12,746 bases of DNA from Patescibacteria group bacterium (lineage in GTDB: Bacteria; Patescibacteriota; Minisyncoccia; Phycocordibacterales; Phycocordibacteraceae). The stretch spans positions 1-12,746 of the forward strand of contig JAFAQP010000083.1 of the NCBI GenBank assembly GCA_019246385.1. The letters are read 5' to 3'. Below, in pieces: positions 620 to 6,551 of the stretch; the first letter of the stretch is position 1, and the number at the start of each line of letters is the position of its first letter. The notes under the pieces were generated by a model. The model was not told the DNA's origin and made no database searches. It saw only the letters and a program-made list of their open reading frames with translations. The position numbers and the translations under genes are program-made.

Positions 620-648
620 ACTCTAGCTTCTTATTCGTCCGCTGGCTA
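620..648 (-). promoter_or_regulatory. Weak candidate promoter upstream of glyQS
   Basis: On the minus strand a TAGCCA hexamer (648-643), a 17-base spacer and TAGAGT (625-620) lie 7 bases before the ATG at 612. Each hexamer matches the sigma-70 consensus at 4 of 6 positions. A transcript from it would start almost at the ATG. The -35-like part overlaps the stop codon of the preceding gene. Such matches occur by chance often, so it counts only because other genes here show the same spacing. Confidence 0.25.
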
Positions 649-2496
649 CTTCGTGACCAATCCGCTCTGTTCTCCTCCCGCCGAGCCGGTCGAGAGATCG
701 GGAGCGTGGCCCTCTACGCTGTCTTGCACGAAACGATCGAAAGCAGTCGCTTTCTGAGAGCTCAAAAGGACCGGTGCGGTTCCCAGTTGCGATATGGAAG
801 GCGTTACTCCGATCTGGAACGTGACATTCCTCGCATCGTTCGCGGACAGATCGCCGACGTTCCAGCTGACGCGGCTTTGGGTCTTATCGAAAGTGACGCC
901 GTTGCCTCCTATAAAGCGCACGTAGCTGGGTATGGTCGCTGTGACGGCAGTATTGCCGAGAGAATTCGCTGAATTTGCTACGTTCCAGGTGACCGCGTAT
1001 ACAGTTTCAGTATTCGCTTTGGGGGTTGACGGTCCGGAAACGTACGCAAGACCCGAGCTCAGCACAAGATCGGACGCAACGACCGCTTTCGTCGCGGCTG
1101 TGCCGGAAACTGCTTCTGCCACATTGCCTTCGCTCGAACGGTTCGCTTGTACGCTTACGGTAAACGTCATGACTGGGTTCTTGAACTGCCCGCTCTCGGG
1201 TGGGTATGTCCTCAGGGTAAATCCAAGTGCGCCGGAGGATCCCGGCGGGACGTTCGCAAAATCGGGGTTCGTCGTCTGGTCCCAGAGAATGTCCGAGTTG
1301 CTTGAGCTGTAGAAGCCGCTTTCCACCCGGACGCTTTCAGGGTCAATGACTTCGCCATTTAATCGCATTTCTATTGAAAGATTTTGAATGGAAACAGGAA
1401 GATTATTGGCCCATTGGACCTGGCCCTCGATAGGCGCGCCGCGTTTCACTGTATGCTGGTCGGCGACCGAACCATTGAGAACGATTGATGCGGAAACGAA
1501 AGGTTTCGTGACGGTAATATCCGATTGCGCGACAGCGAGAGCGGCCGCTATAACGGTGTCCGTGTTCGATTTCCTACTTCCCGTCGTGAAGGTAATAGTT
1601 TTCGTATCGCCGTCTTCGCCCGTAAAGACGCCGCTGAGATGAATCGTCCGCGATCCGCCGGGCTCTATATCGCCGAGCATCCATGCGGAATTTCCGAGCG
1701 ACGCGGCAGGATCGGCGTTTTGGAAGGTGAAGCCAGGCGGATAATTTGCAATGAGCAGCATATCTTTCAAAACCTGAGGAGAATTGGAAGTGACGGTGAC
1801 CGTGATGGGGACGCTTTGCCCGGATACCGCTTCCTTTTCTGCGGATGTCGTGATCGCTGCCGGCGACTGGGTAATACGCGCCGTATAGGTGTTCTCGCTT
1901 ACGAATACGGCATTCGAAGATTGTACGCGGTATTCGACCGATGCCTTGATGGGAAGTTCGGCGCCGGAGGCGCCGAAAAGCACCGCTTTTACGGTTCGAT
2001 TCACGGACTCACCCGGCGCGATAGTGCCTAAGGGTGTGCGTGTTGACGGTATCGGAAGAGCGATATCCTGATCGGATCGCGTACCGGGAGGAAACTGGAC
2101 AACGAGGTCGGCCAACTGTATCGAAACGCTGTTGCGGTTCGTCACGACTACCTGCAACGTGACCGTATCGCCTCCCGCAATGGATTCGGGACCGGAAATC
2201 TGGACATCCACATTCTTGGTCGAGACGATGTTGTTTCCGAAAAAAATAAGAACGCCGGCGAGGGCGAACGACGCTACGAAAAAAATCGCCGATCCCAGAA
2301 ATATCTTTTCGAATCTTCCATATTTTTTTTTGGCCATAGGTTCTGCTACGTCGGGCTGTTTTCCCGGAGCCGCCGTTTCCTGCCAAACGGCGGGTGCACT
2401 TCCCGCGCGAACCGGTATCGAGGAGCGCCGCACATGTTCCGGATCCGTGTTGTCGAGTTTCTTTGAAAGCCGCTCGAGCGCGTCATCTTTCGGCAT
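646..2496 (-). CDS. Single-pass membrane protein with repeated DUF11/CARDB-like beta-sandwich domains; function unknown
   Basis: I do not recognise a specific family for this 616-residue protein. Its N-terminus is hydrophilic (about 1-64) and ends in a basic patch with KKKYGRFEK. One hydrophobic helix follows (about 65-87), then about 525 residues rich in Ser, Thr, Val and Gly with no cysteine. The outer part is about four units of 105-125 residues, each ending in a similar signature: LGTIAPGESVNRTV (156-169), LGDIEPGGSRTIHLSG (274-289), NVPPGSSGALGFTL (415-428) and WNVGDLSANDARNVTFQIG (545-563). This pattern is typical of DUF11/CARDB-like immunoglobulin-fold repeats on bacterial surfaces. 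Inferred topology is N-terminus inside and repeats outside. The frame is open up to 2526, inside recO, but I chose the ATG at 2496 because an extended -10 element ends six bases before it and MPKDDALERL is a natural N-terminus. A role in adhesion or envelope structure is only a guess. Confidence 0.85.
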   Translation of the reverse strand: MPKDDALERLSKKLDNTDPEHVRRSSIPVRAGSAPAVWQETAAPGKQPDVAEPMAKKKYGRFEKIFLGSAIFFVASFALAGVLIFFGNNIVSTKNVDVQISGPESIAGGDTVTLQVVVTNRNSVSIQLADLVVQFPPGTRSDQDIALPIPSTRTPLGTIAPGESVNRTVKAVLFGASGAELPIKASVEYRVQSSNAVFVSENTYTARITQSPAAITTSAEKEAVSGQSVPITVTVTSNSPQVLKDMLLIANYPPGFTFQNADPAASLGNSAWMLGDIEPGGSRTIHLSGVFTGEDGDTKTITFTTGSRKSNTDTVIAAALAVAQSDITVTKPFVSASIVLNGSVADQHTVKRGAPIEGQVQWANNLPVSIQNLSIEMRLNGEVIDPESVRVESGFYSSSNSDILWDQTTNPDFANVPPGSSGALGFTLRTYPPESGQFKNPVMTFTVSVQANRSSEGNVAEAVSGTAATKAVVASDLVLSSGLAYVSGPSTPKANTETVYAVTWNVANSANSLGNTAVTATIPSYVRFIGGNGVTFDKTQSRVSWNVGDLSANDARNVTFQIGVTPSISQLGTAPVLLSSQKATAFDRFVQDSVEGHAPDLSTGSAGGEQSGLVTK

Positions 2497-2502
2497 GTAG
2501 GT

Positions 2503-2511
2503 ATCATAACA
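2503..2511 (-). promoter_or_regulatory. Extended -10 promoter element for the surface-protein gene
   Basis: Reading the minus strand from 2511 to 2503 gives TGTTATGAT: a TGn extension followed by TATGAT, 5 of 6 matches to TATAAT. The last base lies seven positions before the A of the ATG at 2496, which is the expected transcription start, so the mRNA would be leaderless. No good -35 is seen, as is usual for extended -10 promoters. The element sits in the 19 bases between the recO stop and this start. Confidence 0.5.
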
Positions 2512-2515
2512 GTTT

Positions 2516-3100
2516 CTATAATCCACTCGCGGAGATCGCTTCGTTTATCGCATGGACAAGAGGCCTGCGGGCCCGTGAAGCAAGGGAGAGGACCGATGAA
2601 TCGTATGCGTTCGTAAGAAAATTTCTTGTAGTTTCGTTTTCCCGTACGTATCCAAGCGCCGCCAATATCCTTAAGACGGCGAGCGTTTCAGCGGCATCCG
2701 CAAGTTCCGGCATAGCCGCTACAGAATCGAAAAAACCTCGGACCGCGGCATACAGTTCGCGGTTTGCTCCTTCCCCGTGTACGAATTGCCGAACGCTCAT
2801 GATGACTCGAGCAAGCGCGCGCTGTGCCGGCGCATGCGCCTGGAGCACAAAATGAAAATTTTTCGACGAAGTCGCTCCGGTTACACGCCATACGTCTTTC
2901 CCTTTGACGAGGGTGAACATGGCCCGCGAGCCGACCTGTAGATGAGGTCGCAATTTTGAGCGCTCTTCCCTGGCGCTTTTCGCAAGCACGCTCGCAAGGC
3001 CGAGTTCCTGGGTATACAACAGGATCCGCAGGCTTCCTTCCCCCGTCGCATGCCGGGAGAGCACTATTCCTTCCGTCGTTACCTCACGCCTTACGTACAT
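2516..3100 (-). CDS. recO: DNA repair/recombination mediator RecO (short form)
   Basis: RecO helps load RecA on SSB-covered single strands and anneals DNA, working with RecR in gap repair. The N-terminal part (about 1-75) has the OB-fold pattern of the family: TTEGIVLSRHATGEGS (8-23), LLYTQELGL (27-35), and SKLRPHLQVGS (48-58). A helical C-terminal part carries AVLRILAALGYV (141-152), the family's usual LL..LGY element. At 194 residues it is shorter than E. coli RecO (about 242) and has no cysteine, so it lacks the zinc site of some RecO proteins. The frame is open to 3157, but family homology starts at the MYVRREVTTEG methionine (3100), so I use that. This start lies inside the end of ileS (17-base overlap), suggesting translational coupling. 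The stop lies 19 bases before the surface-protein ATG. Confidence 0.85.
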   Translation of the reverse strand: MYVRREVTTEGIVLSRHATGEGSLRILLYTQELGLASVLAKSAREERSKLRPHLQVGSRAMFTLVKGKDVWRVTGATSSKNFHFVLQAHAPAQRALARVIMSVRQFVHGEGANRELYAAVRGFFDSVAAMPELADAAETLAVLRILAALGYVRENETTRNFLTNAYDSSVLSLASRARRPLVHAINEAISASGL

Positions 3101-6100
3101 CAAGATAAAACGACACGTCCGAAAGAGAGAGCGCGTGCAGAGCCTCCCCCTTTTCAAGCGCCGATAACTTTGCTGTTCCGCTTAATTCCTTCCAATTACG
3201 CTCAAGGAACGCGTGCGCTTCGGGAGTTCCTGAAACGACGAGATGCGCCGTATCTTTCGCCGTTAACCCTGCCTGCTTCCGCAATTCCTGGATGAAGCGA
3301 AGGGTTTCCCGCACTTCTCCTTCTTCTTGCAAGATTGGCGTAATGACGGTATCGAGCACTATTTCCTTTTCTTCCGTTTTTACCTCTTTCACATTCACTT
3401 CTTCCGCAAGTATAGATTTGAGTTCCGCAGAAAGCGTTCCGGGTACTGAAAGGCTTTGTAACGGCTGGCGAACTTTTAGATTTGCTTTCTGCCGCGCCTC
3501 CAGGGCCAAGGAGGCAAGTTTTCGGACACGTTCCATATCGACAATCAGCGTGCCTTCTTGTTTGCCGAAAATCTGGAACCATCCGCGTTCCTTCCTTTTG
3601 GGCCACTCCGTAAGATGCACGCTTTCCGGCTGCCCGTCTTTTTTTACACTTTGGTAAATTTCTTCCGCAATAAAAGGCATGACGGGCGCAATAAGGCGCG
3701 AGAGCACATGGAGAACGTCTCGCAGCGTATGGAGCGCCTCCTGCTTGTCTTTTTCATTTTCTCCCTTTACGCGATCGCGGGAGCGGCGCACATACCAGGT
3801 CGACAGGTCTTCAATAAAAACGCGCATGGGCCTCACGGCGCGAACAACGTCAAACGTATCGAACGCCACAGTTGCGGTCTCTATGGTCTCGGCGAGGCGC
3901 AGAAAGATCCATCTGTCGAGTGCGTGATCGCTTTTTCGCTGTATTGAATCATCGAGTTCGGAAGCGTACAGAAGATAGAATGCGTGCACATTTGTCAAAA
4001 TGTTGACGACACGGTTATGGACCTCCTTCACTTCCTCATCTTTGAAAAAAATGTCTTCCGCCTGCATGACGACAGATGACATGAGGTAATAGCGGAACGC
4101 ATCCGCCCCGTAGCGCTCGAATATATGGTAAGGATCGGTAAAATTCTGCTTGCTTTTTGAAAGCTTTTCGCCATCTGCGGCCAGCACGTTTCCCGTCGTA
4201 ATGACGTTATCGAAGGAGCGCCGGCTGAAAAGGTGCACGGAAACGGCGTGCATGTAATAGAACCACGCGCGCGTCTGCGCGATGTATTCGGAAACGAAGT
4301 GCCCGGGCGCGCGTTTTTCGAATTCACTTTTATTCTCGAAAGGATAGTGGTATTCGGCAAACGGCATGGATCCCGATTCAACCCAGCAGTCAACGACCTC
4401 CGGAATACGTGCTAACGGCCGGCCGTTTTCGTCAGCAAGCGCCACGCGATCTATGTAGGGCAAATGGAGATCGAGTTCGTAATTGTCATTGTGCGGAAGG
4501 GGAACGAAATCCAGGCGCGTCACGCCGCCGACCGGTATGCTTTGTTCTTCCGTTTGGCGATCTAAAATTTCGGCTGCCCGGTCTACGCCTGCTCCTTCCG
4601 CGATCACCGAAAGCATCGCGAGCGGCCATCCGTGCGAAACGAGGAGTATGGTTTTCCCGGCATATTTCTTCTCCATTTCATACATGAGTTCCCCGAGGCG
4701 GCCGCGCAAGCCAGTGAGCGTTTCTCCTTCCTCGGGCGGAACATCGAAAAGCTCCCGTGTCCTCGCTCCATACTCGACAGTCCAGTCGGCATCTCGCCGT
4801 CCTTCGAAGACGCCGTGATTATATTCGTTCAATCGGGCGTCCACTTCGACTGGAACAGTGAGGCCGAGAAATTCCTTGACCGTTTGGGCTGTTTCAACGG
4901 CTCTCGGAAGCGCGGAAGAAACGATTACATCGGGCCGCCTCTCGAGCTTTGCGGCAGACTCTCGCGCTGATTGCTTTCCTTTTTCGGTCAGGGGGAAAGC
5001 CGCTTCCGGATAGGAGTTTATGACACCTTCCACGTTCTTTTTCGATTCCCCATGGCGAAGAAGATAGTACGTGTTTCCGCTTTTTTTCGTATACCTTTTG
5101 AGCTCTTCAAGAGAACCGAGAACGCGCACATTCCCTTCGGCATCCTTCCATATGGGCAAAGGCGTGGCCCAGAAGCGGTTTCTTGAGATGGTCCAGTCTG
5201 GAGCGTTCTCCAAAATATGTTTAAAACGTCCGTGTTTGAGATGCTCGGGGATCCAGGTAACGTGCTCATTTTCCGAAATCATCTTTTCCTTCACGGCCTG
5301 CATATTGATGAACCAGGAAGAGACGGCGTTATAGATGAGGGGCGTGCCGCATCGGTAGCAGTGCGGATACGAGTGGGTGTGCGGTTTCTTCTCAAAAAGG
5401 AGCGCTCGTTGGCTAAGATCGGTTTTTATTTCCGCTTCCGCTTTTTTTACGTACTTTCCCTGTAGCCATTCGGGCGCGTTGCCGTTGTAGGTGGCGTTCG
5501 CGTTCAAAAGTGGAATCATCGGCAAATCCTCGCGCATGCCGAGTGCGTAATCATCCTCGCCGTACATGACCGCCGTGTGGACGATACCGGTTCCCTCTTC
5601 GGTTGAAACGAAATCCGCCGCGACAACTTCCCACTTCTTTCCCTTGTGTGCGCCAGCCTTTTCTATGAAATACAAAGGTTCATAGGCGAGGCCGGCGAGC
5701 TCCTTTCCCTTGAATACATTCAAGGGGGAACTGAAACCGTACGCGCTGGCGCGGTTAACGGCGAGGACGTAGACTGCTTCCCCCTGCGCGTATGCGCCGT
5801 ACTCTATGCCGGAACCGACCGCAAGGGCGACATTCCCCGGCAAGGTCCACGGAGTCGTCGTCCACGCGAGCGCGAAGACGTCTCCCGCAAGTCCGAGTTT
5901 GTCCGCGCCGGAAAGACGAAACTTTATTGTGACCGCTTCTTCGGTTATGTCTTTGTACGTGTTATCCATCGCGATCTCCGCTTTTGCAAGTGGCGTTTCG
6001 CAATGCGGGCAATACAGGAGCACCTTTCTGCCTTCGTAGAGCCGTCCCTTCTTGTGTATCTGCGCCAGTGCCCACCACACGCTTTCCATATACGTCGGGT

Positions 6101-6551
6101 CCATGGTCTTGTAAGAATTATCGAAATCGACAAAACGCCCCACACGTTCGACATACCGCTTCCATTCGGACACGTATTCAAGGACCATACTCCGCGCTGT
6201 TTCGTTGAATTTTTCTATGCCGATTTCGTATATCTCTTTTTTATTTCTGAGCCCTAGTTTTTTCTCGACAAGAGATTCTATCGGCAATCCATGGCAATCC
6301 CATCCCCAACGGCGGCGCACTCGGTAACCGCGCATCGTCTTATAGCGGGGGATGAGATCTTTGGATACGGAGGAAAGCAAAGAGCCTGAATGCGGAACGC
6401 CTGTTGCAAACGGCGGCCCGTCGTAGAAGACGAACTCGCCTTTCGGTGCCTCCTTTTCAAGGGATTTGTCGAAAATTTTATGCTCTTCCCAAAACGCAAG
6501 AATTTTTTCTTCTCGTTTCGCTACATCGCTTTTTTGCGATTGTTCAGCCAT
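3084..6551 (-). CDS. ileS: Isoleucyl-tRNA synthetase with an inserted histidine-phosphatase domain
   Basis: This class I synthetase charges tRNA-Ile. The 1155-residue protein has a Rossmann core with FATGVPHSGS at 48-57 (HIGH position, last His replaced by Ser) and WGWDCHGLPIE (82-92). The CP1 editing domain shows TTTPWTLPGN (231-240) and GIVHTAVMYGEDDYALG (322-338). The core resumes with WTISRNRFWATPLPIW (453-468) and SLEEL (480-484). A complete histidine-phosphatase domain follows (about 493-685), then the core continues with ELDLHLPYID (692-701), DCWVESGSMPFA (721-732) and the KMSKS variant KLSKS (796-800). The anticodon-binding domain and C-terminal region run from about 870 to the end. 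Sequence style resembles the archaeal/eukaryotic-type IleRS also found in many bacteria. The frame is open throughout. It starts 38 bases after argS and overlaps recO by 17 bases. No Shine-Dalgarno is seen; an extended -10 element sits 8 bases before the ATG. Confidence 0.97.
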   Translation of the reverse strand: MAEQSQKSDVAKREEKILAFWEEHKIFDKSLEKEAPKGEFVFYDGPPFATGVPHSGSLLSSVSKDLIPRYKTMRGYRVRRRWGWDCHGLPIESLVEKKLGLRNKKEIYEIGIEKFNETARSMVLEYVSEWKRYVERVGRFVDFDNSYKTMDPTYMESVWWALAQIHKKGRLYEGRKVLLYCPHCETPLAKAEIAMDNTYKDITEEAVTIKFRLSGADKLGLAGDVFALAWTTTPWTLPGNVALAVGSGIEYGAYAQGEAVYVLAVNRASAYGFSSPLNVFKGKELAGLAYEPLYFIEKAGAHKGKKWEVVAADFVSTEEGTGIVHTAVMYGEDDYALGMREDLPMIPLLNANATYNGNAPEWLQGKYVKKAEAEIKTDLSQRALLFEKKPHTHSYPHCYRCGTPLIYNAVSSWFINMQAVKEKMISENEHVTWIPEHLKHGRFKHILENAPDWTISRNRFWATPLPIWKDAEGNVRVLGSLEELKRYTKKSGNTYYLLRHGESKKNVEGVINSYPEAAFPLTEKGKQSARESAAKLERRPDVIVSSALPRAVETAQTVKEFLGLTVPVEVDARLNEYNHGVFEGRRDADWTVEYGARTRELFDVPPEEGETLTGLRGRLGELMYEMEKKYAGKTILLVSHGWPLAMLSVIAEGAGVDRAAEILDRQTEEQSIPVGGVTRLDFVPLPHNDNYELDLHLPYIDRVALADENGRPLARIPEVVDCWVESGSMPFAEYHYPFENKSEFEKRAPGHFVSEYIAQTRAWFYYMHAVSVHLFSRRSFDNVITTGNVLAADGEKLSKSKQNFTDPYHIFERYGADAFRYYLMSSVVMQAEDIFFKDEEVKEVHNRVVNILTNVHAFYLLYASELDDSIQRKSDHALDRWIFLRLAETIETATVAFDTFDVVRAVRPMRVFIEDLSTWYVRRSRDRVKGENEKDKQEALHTLRDVLHVLSRLIAPVMPFIAEEIYQSVKKDGQPESVHLTEWPKRKERGWFQIFGKQEGTLIVDMERVRKLASLALEARQKANLKVRQPLQSLSVPGTLSAELKSILAEEVNVKEVKTEEKEIVLDTVITPILQEEGEVRETLRFIQELRKQAGLTAKDTAHLVVSGTPEAHAFLERNWKELSGTAKLSALEKGEALHALSLSDVSFYLDVRKA
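4497..5075 (-). other. Histidine-phosphatase (phosphoglycerate-mutase-like) domain inside IleRS
   Basis: Residues about 493-685 of IleRS match the His_Phos_1 / PhoE-like pattern from end to end. Visible are YYLLRHGESKKN with the phosphohistidine candidate H500 beside R499, FPLTEKGKQSA (519-529), SSALPRAVETAQ (545-556) with R550, LNEYNHGVFEG (574-584) with the likely acid E576, PPEEGETL (605-612), and ILLVSHGWPL (635-644) with the second catalytic H640. All residues needed for phosphatase chemistry appear present, so I predict an active domain. It sits between SLEEL and ELDLHLPYID, which are close together in ordinary IleRS of this type. The substrate cannot be read from the sequence. Confidence 0.92.

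Follow-up and report, generated by a model that had tools for sequence, protein, structure and literature searches.

Few enzymes are as conserved as the aminoacyl-tRNA synthetases. Additional domains are a known feature of them and are usually regarded as fixed lineage traits. The systems closest to the one described here are type 2 isoleucyl-tRNA synthetases (IleRS), such as IleRS2 of Priestia megaterium (8c8v) and yeast IleRS (8wnd), and two free-standing histidine phosphatases (HPs), the broad-specificity enzyme PhoE of Bacillus stearothermophilus (1h2e) and the metal-independent phosphoserine phosphatase of Hydrogenobacter (4ij5). We analysed a stretch of 12,746 nucleotides from a Patescibacteria group bacterium (assembly GCA_019246385.1, contig JAFAQP010000083.1; hereafter the window), which encodes an IleRS with an HP inserted in its catalytic domain. 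This protein differs from the type 2 enzymes by an enzyme of 200 residues in the presumed connective-peptide region and by an HxGS first signature motif, and from PhoE and the Hydrogenobacter phosphatase in that its HP lies inside a synthetase and is not free-standing.

The fusion itself is already visible in automatic IMG/NCBI names, for instance 'isoleucyl-tRNA synthetase/broad specificity phosphatase PhoE'. Another IleRS with an extra small-molecule-modifying enzyme is described by NCBIfam NF040702, but there the enzyme is an N-acetyltransferase and sits in a different place; two relatives of the window protein that carry HP and GNAT domains (P0178 and P0210) can be likened to it by domain content. 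A looser analogy may be drawn to the GNAT MccE and the HIT hydrolase MccH, small enzymes that inactivate synthetase inhibitors. Unlike the HP, these are separate proteins of other folds, with aspartyl-tRNA synthetase (AspRS) as the target (PMC7157772). That article describes GNAT and HIT enzymes that disarm aminoacyl-adenylate antibiotics, and MccH homologues from Parcubacteria were among those tested. No publication on the function, copy number or exchange of the HP fusion was found in the open-licence literature, and an exchanged enzyme with its own active site inside the catalytic domain of a synthetase is, as far as we found, apparently undescribed. Here, an essential synthetase carries in its catalytic domain an HP that is swapped among close relatives with sharp borders and an unchanged active site, a pattern that would suit defence or specificity modules better than housekeeping enzymes.

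The IleRS insert is a complete histidine phosphatase

The Pfam family His_Phos_1 (PF00300) matched residues 496-659 of the window IleRS with 112.2 bits (E 3.3e-32, cut-off 21.7). A first-pass annotation, made from the letters alone, had described a complete HP with all catalytic landmarks, naming RHGE (499-502), R550, E576 and SHG with H640, and each of these was found as named. In branch 1 of PF00300 we take the RHG histidine to be the nucleophile, assisted by a pocket arginine, a second histidine and an acidic general acid; the whole set (R499, H500, R550, H640 and E576) is present in the insert. An HP fold was predicted with high confidence in the context of the full protein. Both IleRS halves are intact, as had been claimed: the gene is a single frame, tRNA-synt_1 (409.8 bits), Anticodon_1 (105.3 bits) and DUF5915 are matched in the protein besides His_Phos_1, and the whole protein scores 797.3 bits against the NCBIfam isoleucine--tRNA ligase model ileS (TIGR00392, cut-off 621.4).

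The insert had been placed at positions 4497-5075. That it interrupts the catalytic domain in frame holds, while its borders shift to about residues 491-690 (window 4482-5081). The residues at the two junctions are almost fixed, with N493 in 120 and H687 in 119 of 120 relatives. In G180, a genome of the same class, the IleRS (L163) reads GSVAELEKLTNQKVKDLHRPFID and has no insert, thus presenting the empty site; since this protein is uninterrupted there, the HP can be placed after the LEEL segment and ahead of DLHRPYID. The sequence that follows the insert corresponds in P. megaterium IleRS2 to a segment starting near residue 484, and the core segments of that enzyme are residues 40-168 and 513-632 (PMC10485003). 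From this alignment and these positions, the insert appears to lie in the connective-peptide region, just ahead of the second core segment, and we use the label connective peptide 2 for the site on the strength of the comparison with IleRS2.

The insert stayed under the cut-off of every named HP subfamily model listed by NCBIfam (best 25 of 33 rows). Cofactor-dependent phosphoglycerate mutase (TIGR01258, 40.0 against 81.7 bits; NF038349, 57.8 against 225), the alpha-ribazole phosphatase CobC (TIGR03162, 69.6 against 162.9) and the phosphoserine phosphatase PspA (NF045917, 51.3 against 350) all scored below their cut-offs.

Conservation of the active site was checked in 120 relatives, retrieved by shared five-residue words with the HP domain. 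R499, H500, R550 and H640 were identical in all of them, and position 576 was E in 117 and D in 3; loss of H500 or H640 in close homologues, which would speak against an active enzyme, was therefore not seen. The arginines, histidines and glutamate were also invariant in a profile-found set consisting of the window protein and 21 single-HP IleRS from other lineages. The same four residues were kept in 80 named loci (best 80 of 443, insert as query), with E in 78 and D in 2 at the glutamate position. Mean pairwise identity is 0.383 for the HP, 0.52-0.55 for the catalytic parts and 0.351 for the C-terminal segment. A decayed domain is ruled out by this conservation in the 120 relatives and 80 loci despite the drift of the sequence, and the conserved active site suggests that the insert is catalytically competent.

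The phosphatase is exchanged as a block

Judged from aligned relatives, the HP is exchanged between synthetases as a block with fixed borders. Between P0002 and P0023, 20 of the 468 columns ahead of the insert region differ, as do 106 of 260 inside it and 8 of 447 after it; identity drops past KSGN and returns at PLPHN. Similarly, P0082 and P0107 share 0.97 and 0.98 of the body and 0.44 of the HP. The reverse pattern occurs as well, with an HP identity of 0.87 and bodies of 0.49 and 0.55 in P0081/P0100, and 0.74 with bodies of 0.51 and 0.44 in P0058/P0071. Over 6216 pairs the HP was more alike than the body by at least 0.15 in 22, and in the median it was 0.11 less alike. On a quick body tree, the bodies that hold HPs with the KSGN junction belonged to three or more lineages and had HxGH, HxGS and GxHH as first motifs. 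The HP data reject two clades of the body tree (approximately unbiased test, p 5.5e-8 and 1.6e-6), which were chosen after the HP tree had been seen. In the IleRS of Ca. Nomurabacteria GW2011_GWE2_34_25 (L137) the N-terminal part is 0.86 and the HP 0.36 identical to L133, and this HP is 0.75 identical to that of L112; codon-level windows give the same shift.

The other segments of the protein served for comparison. Among pairs at least 0.9 identical outside the HP, the HP drops by at least 0.35 in 2 of 11, and in the other nine it lies within 0.07 of the body or above it; a drop of this size is seen in no other segment at the 0.9 level. The N-terminal and the two catalytic segments show no drops of even 0.25. 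With the same drop of 0.35, the HP is affected in 7 of 37 pairs and the C-terminal segment in 6 of 46 at the 0.8 level, and in 50 of 201 and 47 of 282, respectively, at the 0.7 level. The correlation of pairwise identity with the rest of the protein is 0.30 for the HP and 0.65-0.92 for other blocks.

Distribution of the fusion

A search with residues 478-700 returned 302 proteins and a second search for relatives 721, which means that hundreds of relatives exist in this large, little-studied group of bacteria, which are tiny and uncultured. The HP was confirmed in all 120 proteins listed of the 302, with synthetase domains present, and the names among these include Patescibacteria, Paceibacterota, Kaiserbacteria and Zambryskibacteria. 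Named carriers (best 80 of 443) include Taylor-, Zambryski-, Nomura-, Yonath-, Adler- and Wolfebacteria, as well as Colwell-, Wildermuth-, Yanofsky-, Ryan-, Niyogi- and Nealsonbacteria. The first-pass suggestion of similar architectures in related IleRS of the Candidate Phyla Radiation (CPR) is supported, the occurrence being CPR-wide in database and genome scans. One record labelled Spirochaetia bacterium (L089, QYPD01000003.1) has an IleRS-HP of the same type and is possibly a mislabelled bin.

Within the window genus PF00300 was present in 9 of 10 genomes, and in three that are 99-100% complete (G001, G003 and G004) its sole match lies inside a frame of 1163-1170 residues. With the whole IleRS as query, 133 of 146 matched genomes of the order align through the insert and 8 are undecided. 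We further drew 192 genomes of the phylum, of which 29 without a match were not listed; 12 members of the class were listed, and all except G180 have the HP in their IleRS (11 genomes). Of 68 phylum genomes drawn evenly, 8 have an IleRS that is interrupted at the HP site.

Extra copies and repeated recruitment

The first-pass annotation overlooked the tandem and triple copies, the versions in valyl-tRNA synthetase (ValRS) and the block exchange between synthetases. At least 28 frames over 800 residues long were found among the matches listed from the 192-genome draw, 25 of them IleRS and three ValRS (L024 with two HPs, L027 and L035). Genome G054 combines ValRS L024 with an IleRS (L078) whose HP lies between the catalytic and anticodon domains, a position that rules it out as a connective-peptide insert.

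Of 120 listed IleRS from Peribacteria/Peregrinibacteria, 116 have two HPs and four have three. In the tandem proteins the second HP begins about 28 residues past the end of the first, with IleRS sequence in between. R and H are retained by 113 of the 116 first copies (3 gaps), and the remaining catalytic residues by all 116; the second copies keep all catalytic residues except for one H640, and the four triple-HP proteins have every catalytic residue in all three copies. The Peribacteria-type proteins P0178 and P0210 contain a GNAT acetyltransferase domain in addition to two HPs, at residues 276-382 in P0210 and known from precomputed domains in P0178. An HD domain in P0019 was considered as a second phosphohydrolase at the insert site and rejected, because it lies in the C-terminal part of this IleRS fragment, at residues 762-803 of 962 and thus close to the C-terminus.

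In the HP tree, the 46 rows of first-position HPs of IleRS need three changes, compared to 31.5 with shuffled labels. The free-standing HP of G180 falls within this group, and three other free-standing HPs and the HP of ValRS L035 join the same loose IleRS group. Second copies form their own clade (100/98), which leans toward the other ValRS HPs (80/87). The placement of first copies, second copies and ValRS HPs indicates repeated recruitment of HPs. For the HP of ValRS L027 there are 13 matches, 10 of which reach at least 64% identity, its own cluster counted. Separately, a mutase-like HP is fused to phosphoglycerate dehydrogenase-like proteins in L038 and L039 and to a pyruvate kinase-like protein in L040.

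In close pairs from Peribacteria, a drop of at least 0.3 was seen in the second HP in 25 of 79 pairs and in the first HP in none of 79, as in P0126/P0203 (N 0.85, A 0.88, B 0.36, C 0.87). However, when all 5671 pairs are taken, the first HP correlates with the body at 0.48 and the second at 0.38, so the contrast is only moderate. When near donors of changed second HPs were sought among 107 rows, five of six proteins had no second-HP relative above 0.57 identity, and fast divergence may therefore account for these second HPs. The sixth, P0226, has a second-HP relative at 0.99 in P0211, which is also close in the first HP and the C part; this pair is mosaic in the N part instead.

Possible function of the inserted phosphatase

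We see about an even chance that the insert is a genuine, independently folded PhoE-like HP that sits in a type 2 IleRS, at the connective-peptide region, and works for the synthetase. By family resemblance, H500 would form a phosphohistidine and a phosphomonoester would be hydrolysed. With less certainty, the HP may remove a phosphate that would otherwise block charging. Candidate substrates would be a phosphorylated inhibitor targeting IleRS or ValRS, or a phosphate on the synthetase or its tRNA, and a changing set of substrates would account for a swapped domain with a fixed active site. Such an unblocking role is favoured because only IleRS and ValRS carry the HP among the synthetases in the set inspected, and because the HP was acquired repeatedly and turns over in sequence with its active site fixed. 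By analogy, the GNAT beside two HPs in P0178 and P0210 would fit it too, since GNAT/HIT enzymes disarm aminoacyl-adenylate antibiotics. Replacement of the block in an otherwise near constant IleRS hints at a protective or regulatory job. The proposal of the first-pass annotation that the domain could act on a product or by-product of the synthetase, with AMP, alarmones and mis-activated adenylate as candidates, fares less well, as an HP that is exchanged as a block between synthetases is hard to reconcile with a fixed role tied to charging.

Several observations weigh against a role in the service of the synthetase. The HP is dispensable, for besides G180 most of the 68 evenly drawn genomes have an IleRS without it, and so do five of the 146 order genomes (G220, G227, G252, G253 and G270), in which the frame is 950-980 residues long and the match ends near query residue 496. 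G180 encodes its relative of the inserted HPs separately, amid unrelated genes (L173:4162-4752, 196 residues); as this gene stands away from ileS, the function may be possible without the fusion. In the IleRS of G038 (L077) and G056 (L076) the same site is taken by an unrelated insert of about 130 residues, so the site may simply tolerate inserts; a Pfam search with this insert gave nothing significant (best E 0.056). HPs are also fused to enzymes other than synthetases (L038-L040), and the C-terminal segment is more diverged than the HP. Moreover, block exchange is not confined to the HP: the C-terminal block of the relatives (940-1120) is mosaic as well (r 0.40 with the rest), and because both it and the HP correlate poorly with the rest, the synthetases are mosaic in at least two places. 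Drops of at least 0.25 at the 0.9 level occur in the editing (1 of 15 pairs), anticodon (4 of 16) and C-terminal (1 of 15) segments, and isolated cases of mosaicism were found in the editing, anticodon and, in Peribacteria, N-terminal parts.

These points are shared in part by the main rival, which we regard as possible and clearly less probable: an ordinary cellular phosphatase hitch-hikes in a tolerant loop, linked to IleRS only through shared expression from an essential gene, and the block exchange results from recombination where constraint is weak. It would explain the free-standing HP and empty site of G180, the unrelated insert in G038/G056, the mosaic C-terminal domain and the fusions to metabolic enzymes. 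The window genome, G001, G003 and G004 have no other HP, and the fused one could be their general phosphatase. It does not predict that IleRS and the related ValRS recruited HPs repeatedly, as tandem copies and at different sites, nor that close Peribacteria pairs drop in the second HP and not in the first, moderate as that contrast is.

An extension of the synthetase-unblocking role, which we offer tentatively and think rather doubtful, is that IleRS and ValRS of Patescibacteria are conflict sites that carry their own exchangeable protection enzymes. The HP cassette, together with the acetyltransferase in some Peribacteria, would disarm inhibitors or reverse phosphorylation at the target, where toxins, phages or neighbours might phosphorylate the synthetase or tRNA. 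The core would be kept and the cassette swapped to match changing attackers, with the first signature motif varying alongside. If true, protection would take place at the target itself.

It is unlikely that the HP is an allosteric regulator of charging that senses or removes a phosphorylated signal, such as a phospho-amino acid or a nucleotide alarmone. Its position directly ahead of the second half of the catalytic core and its invariant active site would suit this, but a fixed cellular signal would not predict exchange of the domain among close relatives. Still less probable is a structural or tRNA-binding add-on with a merely retained ancestral active site: the confidently predicted fold and the nearly fixed junction residues N493 and H687 agree with it, whereas the active-site residues are among the most conserved and the rest drifts to 38% mean pairwise identity.

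That the insert supplies the phosphoglycerate mutase or pyrophosphatase activity of the cell is hardly credible. The cofactor-independent mutase domain PF06415 is absent from all five genus genomes tested, and the pyrophosphatase PF00719 was found in 10 of 25 genomes overall and is missing from many fusion carriers outside the genus. However, the genus has no lower glycolysis for a mutase to serve (of 9 genomes tested, 8 lack enolase and all lack PF01676), the models of cofactor-dependent mutase score far under their cut-offs, and PF00719 is present in all five genus genomes tested (as a contig-end fragment in G000), so within the genus both roles were rejected. An assembly join or frameshift artefact can practically be dismissed although the window genome is a fragmented draft, since the same frame recurs in the 80 named loci and in many independent genomes, including the single-contig G201 and G303, and the third-position guanine-plus-cytosine content of the insert (0.575) matches that of its flanks (0.606 and 0.572).

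The synthetase gene and its genome context

By sequence, the nearest relatives of the window synthetase are type 2 enzymes: it scores 663.6 bits with P. megaterium IleRS2 (8c8u) and 285.7 bits with IleRS1 of the same species (8c9e). Editing-domain structures align to residues 203-391. The canonical first motif HxGH is replaced by HSGS. At residue 57, 84 of the 120 relatives have H, 28 have S and one has T (gap in 7); at residue 54, 83 have H, 24 have G and 6 have A. A GxHH first motif is described for type 2 IleRS in PMC10485003, and the term HXGS does not occur in the main text of that article. We file the window protein as an IleRS with a variant first motif despite HSGS, because the score of the curated family is reached and the other motifs are intact. 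The positions of all features are given in Table 1.

Table 1. Features of the HP-containing IleRS gene in the window.
Feature	Position	Strand	Remarks
Isoleucyl-tRNA synthetase, type 2 by nearest relatives, with inserted HP	3084..6551	(-)	1155 residues, one open frame
N-terminal IleRS part, residues 1-490	5082..6551	(-)	First catalytic-domain half and editing domain; TIGR00392 positions 3-507
Class I first signature motif, residues 54-57	6381..6392	(-)	HSGS in place of HIGH
HP cassette, residues about 491-690	4482..5081	(-)	PF00300 match, borders from relatives, empty site in G180
Left cassette border, TKKSGN, residues 488-493	5073..5090	(-)	N493 in 120/120; identity falls beyond (P0002/P0023, P0082/P0107)
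RHG motif, residues 499-501	5049..5057	(-)	H500 is the predicted phosphate acceptor
R550, predicted phosphate-pocket arginine	4902..4904	(-)	120/120
E576, predicted general acid	4824..4826	(-)	E 117, D 3 of 120
H640, second active-site histidine	4632..4634	(-)	120/120
Right cassette border, FVPLPHNDNYELDLHLPYID, residues 682-701	4449..4508	(-)	
C-terminal IleRS part, residues 691-1155 and stop	3084..4481	(-)	Second catalytic half, anticodon-binding and C-terminal domains
KMSKS loop, residues 796-800	4152..4166	(-)	Reads KLSKS

The window genome comprises 0.69 Mb in 109 contigs and is 86.5% complete. Neither a second ileS over the cut-off nor another PF00300 match was found in it, the IleRS insert being the sole one. 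By Pfam, the neighbours in the window are ordinary: RecO, arginyl-tRNA synthetase, serine hydroxymethyltransferase, thymidylate kinase, thymidylate synthase, a dCTP deaminase-like protein and dihydrofolate reductase. At 646-2526 (-), a protein of 626 residues has a weak match to DUF11 (32.8 bits) and may, as a guess, be a surface protein.
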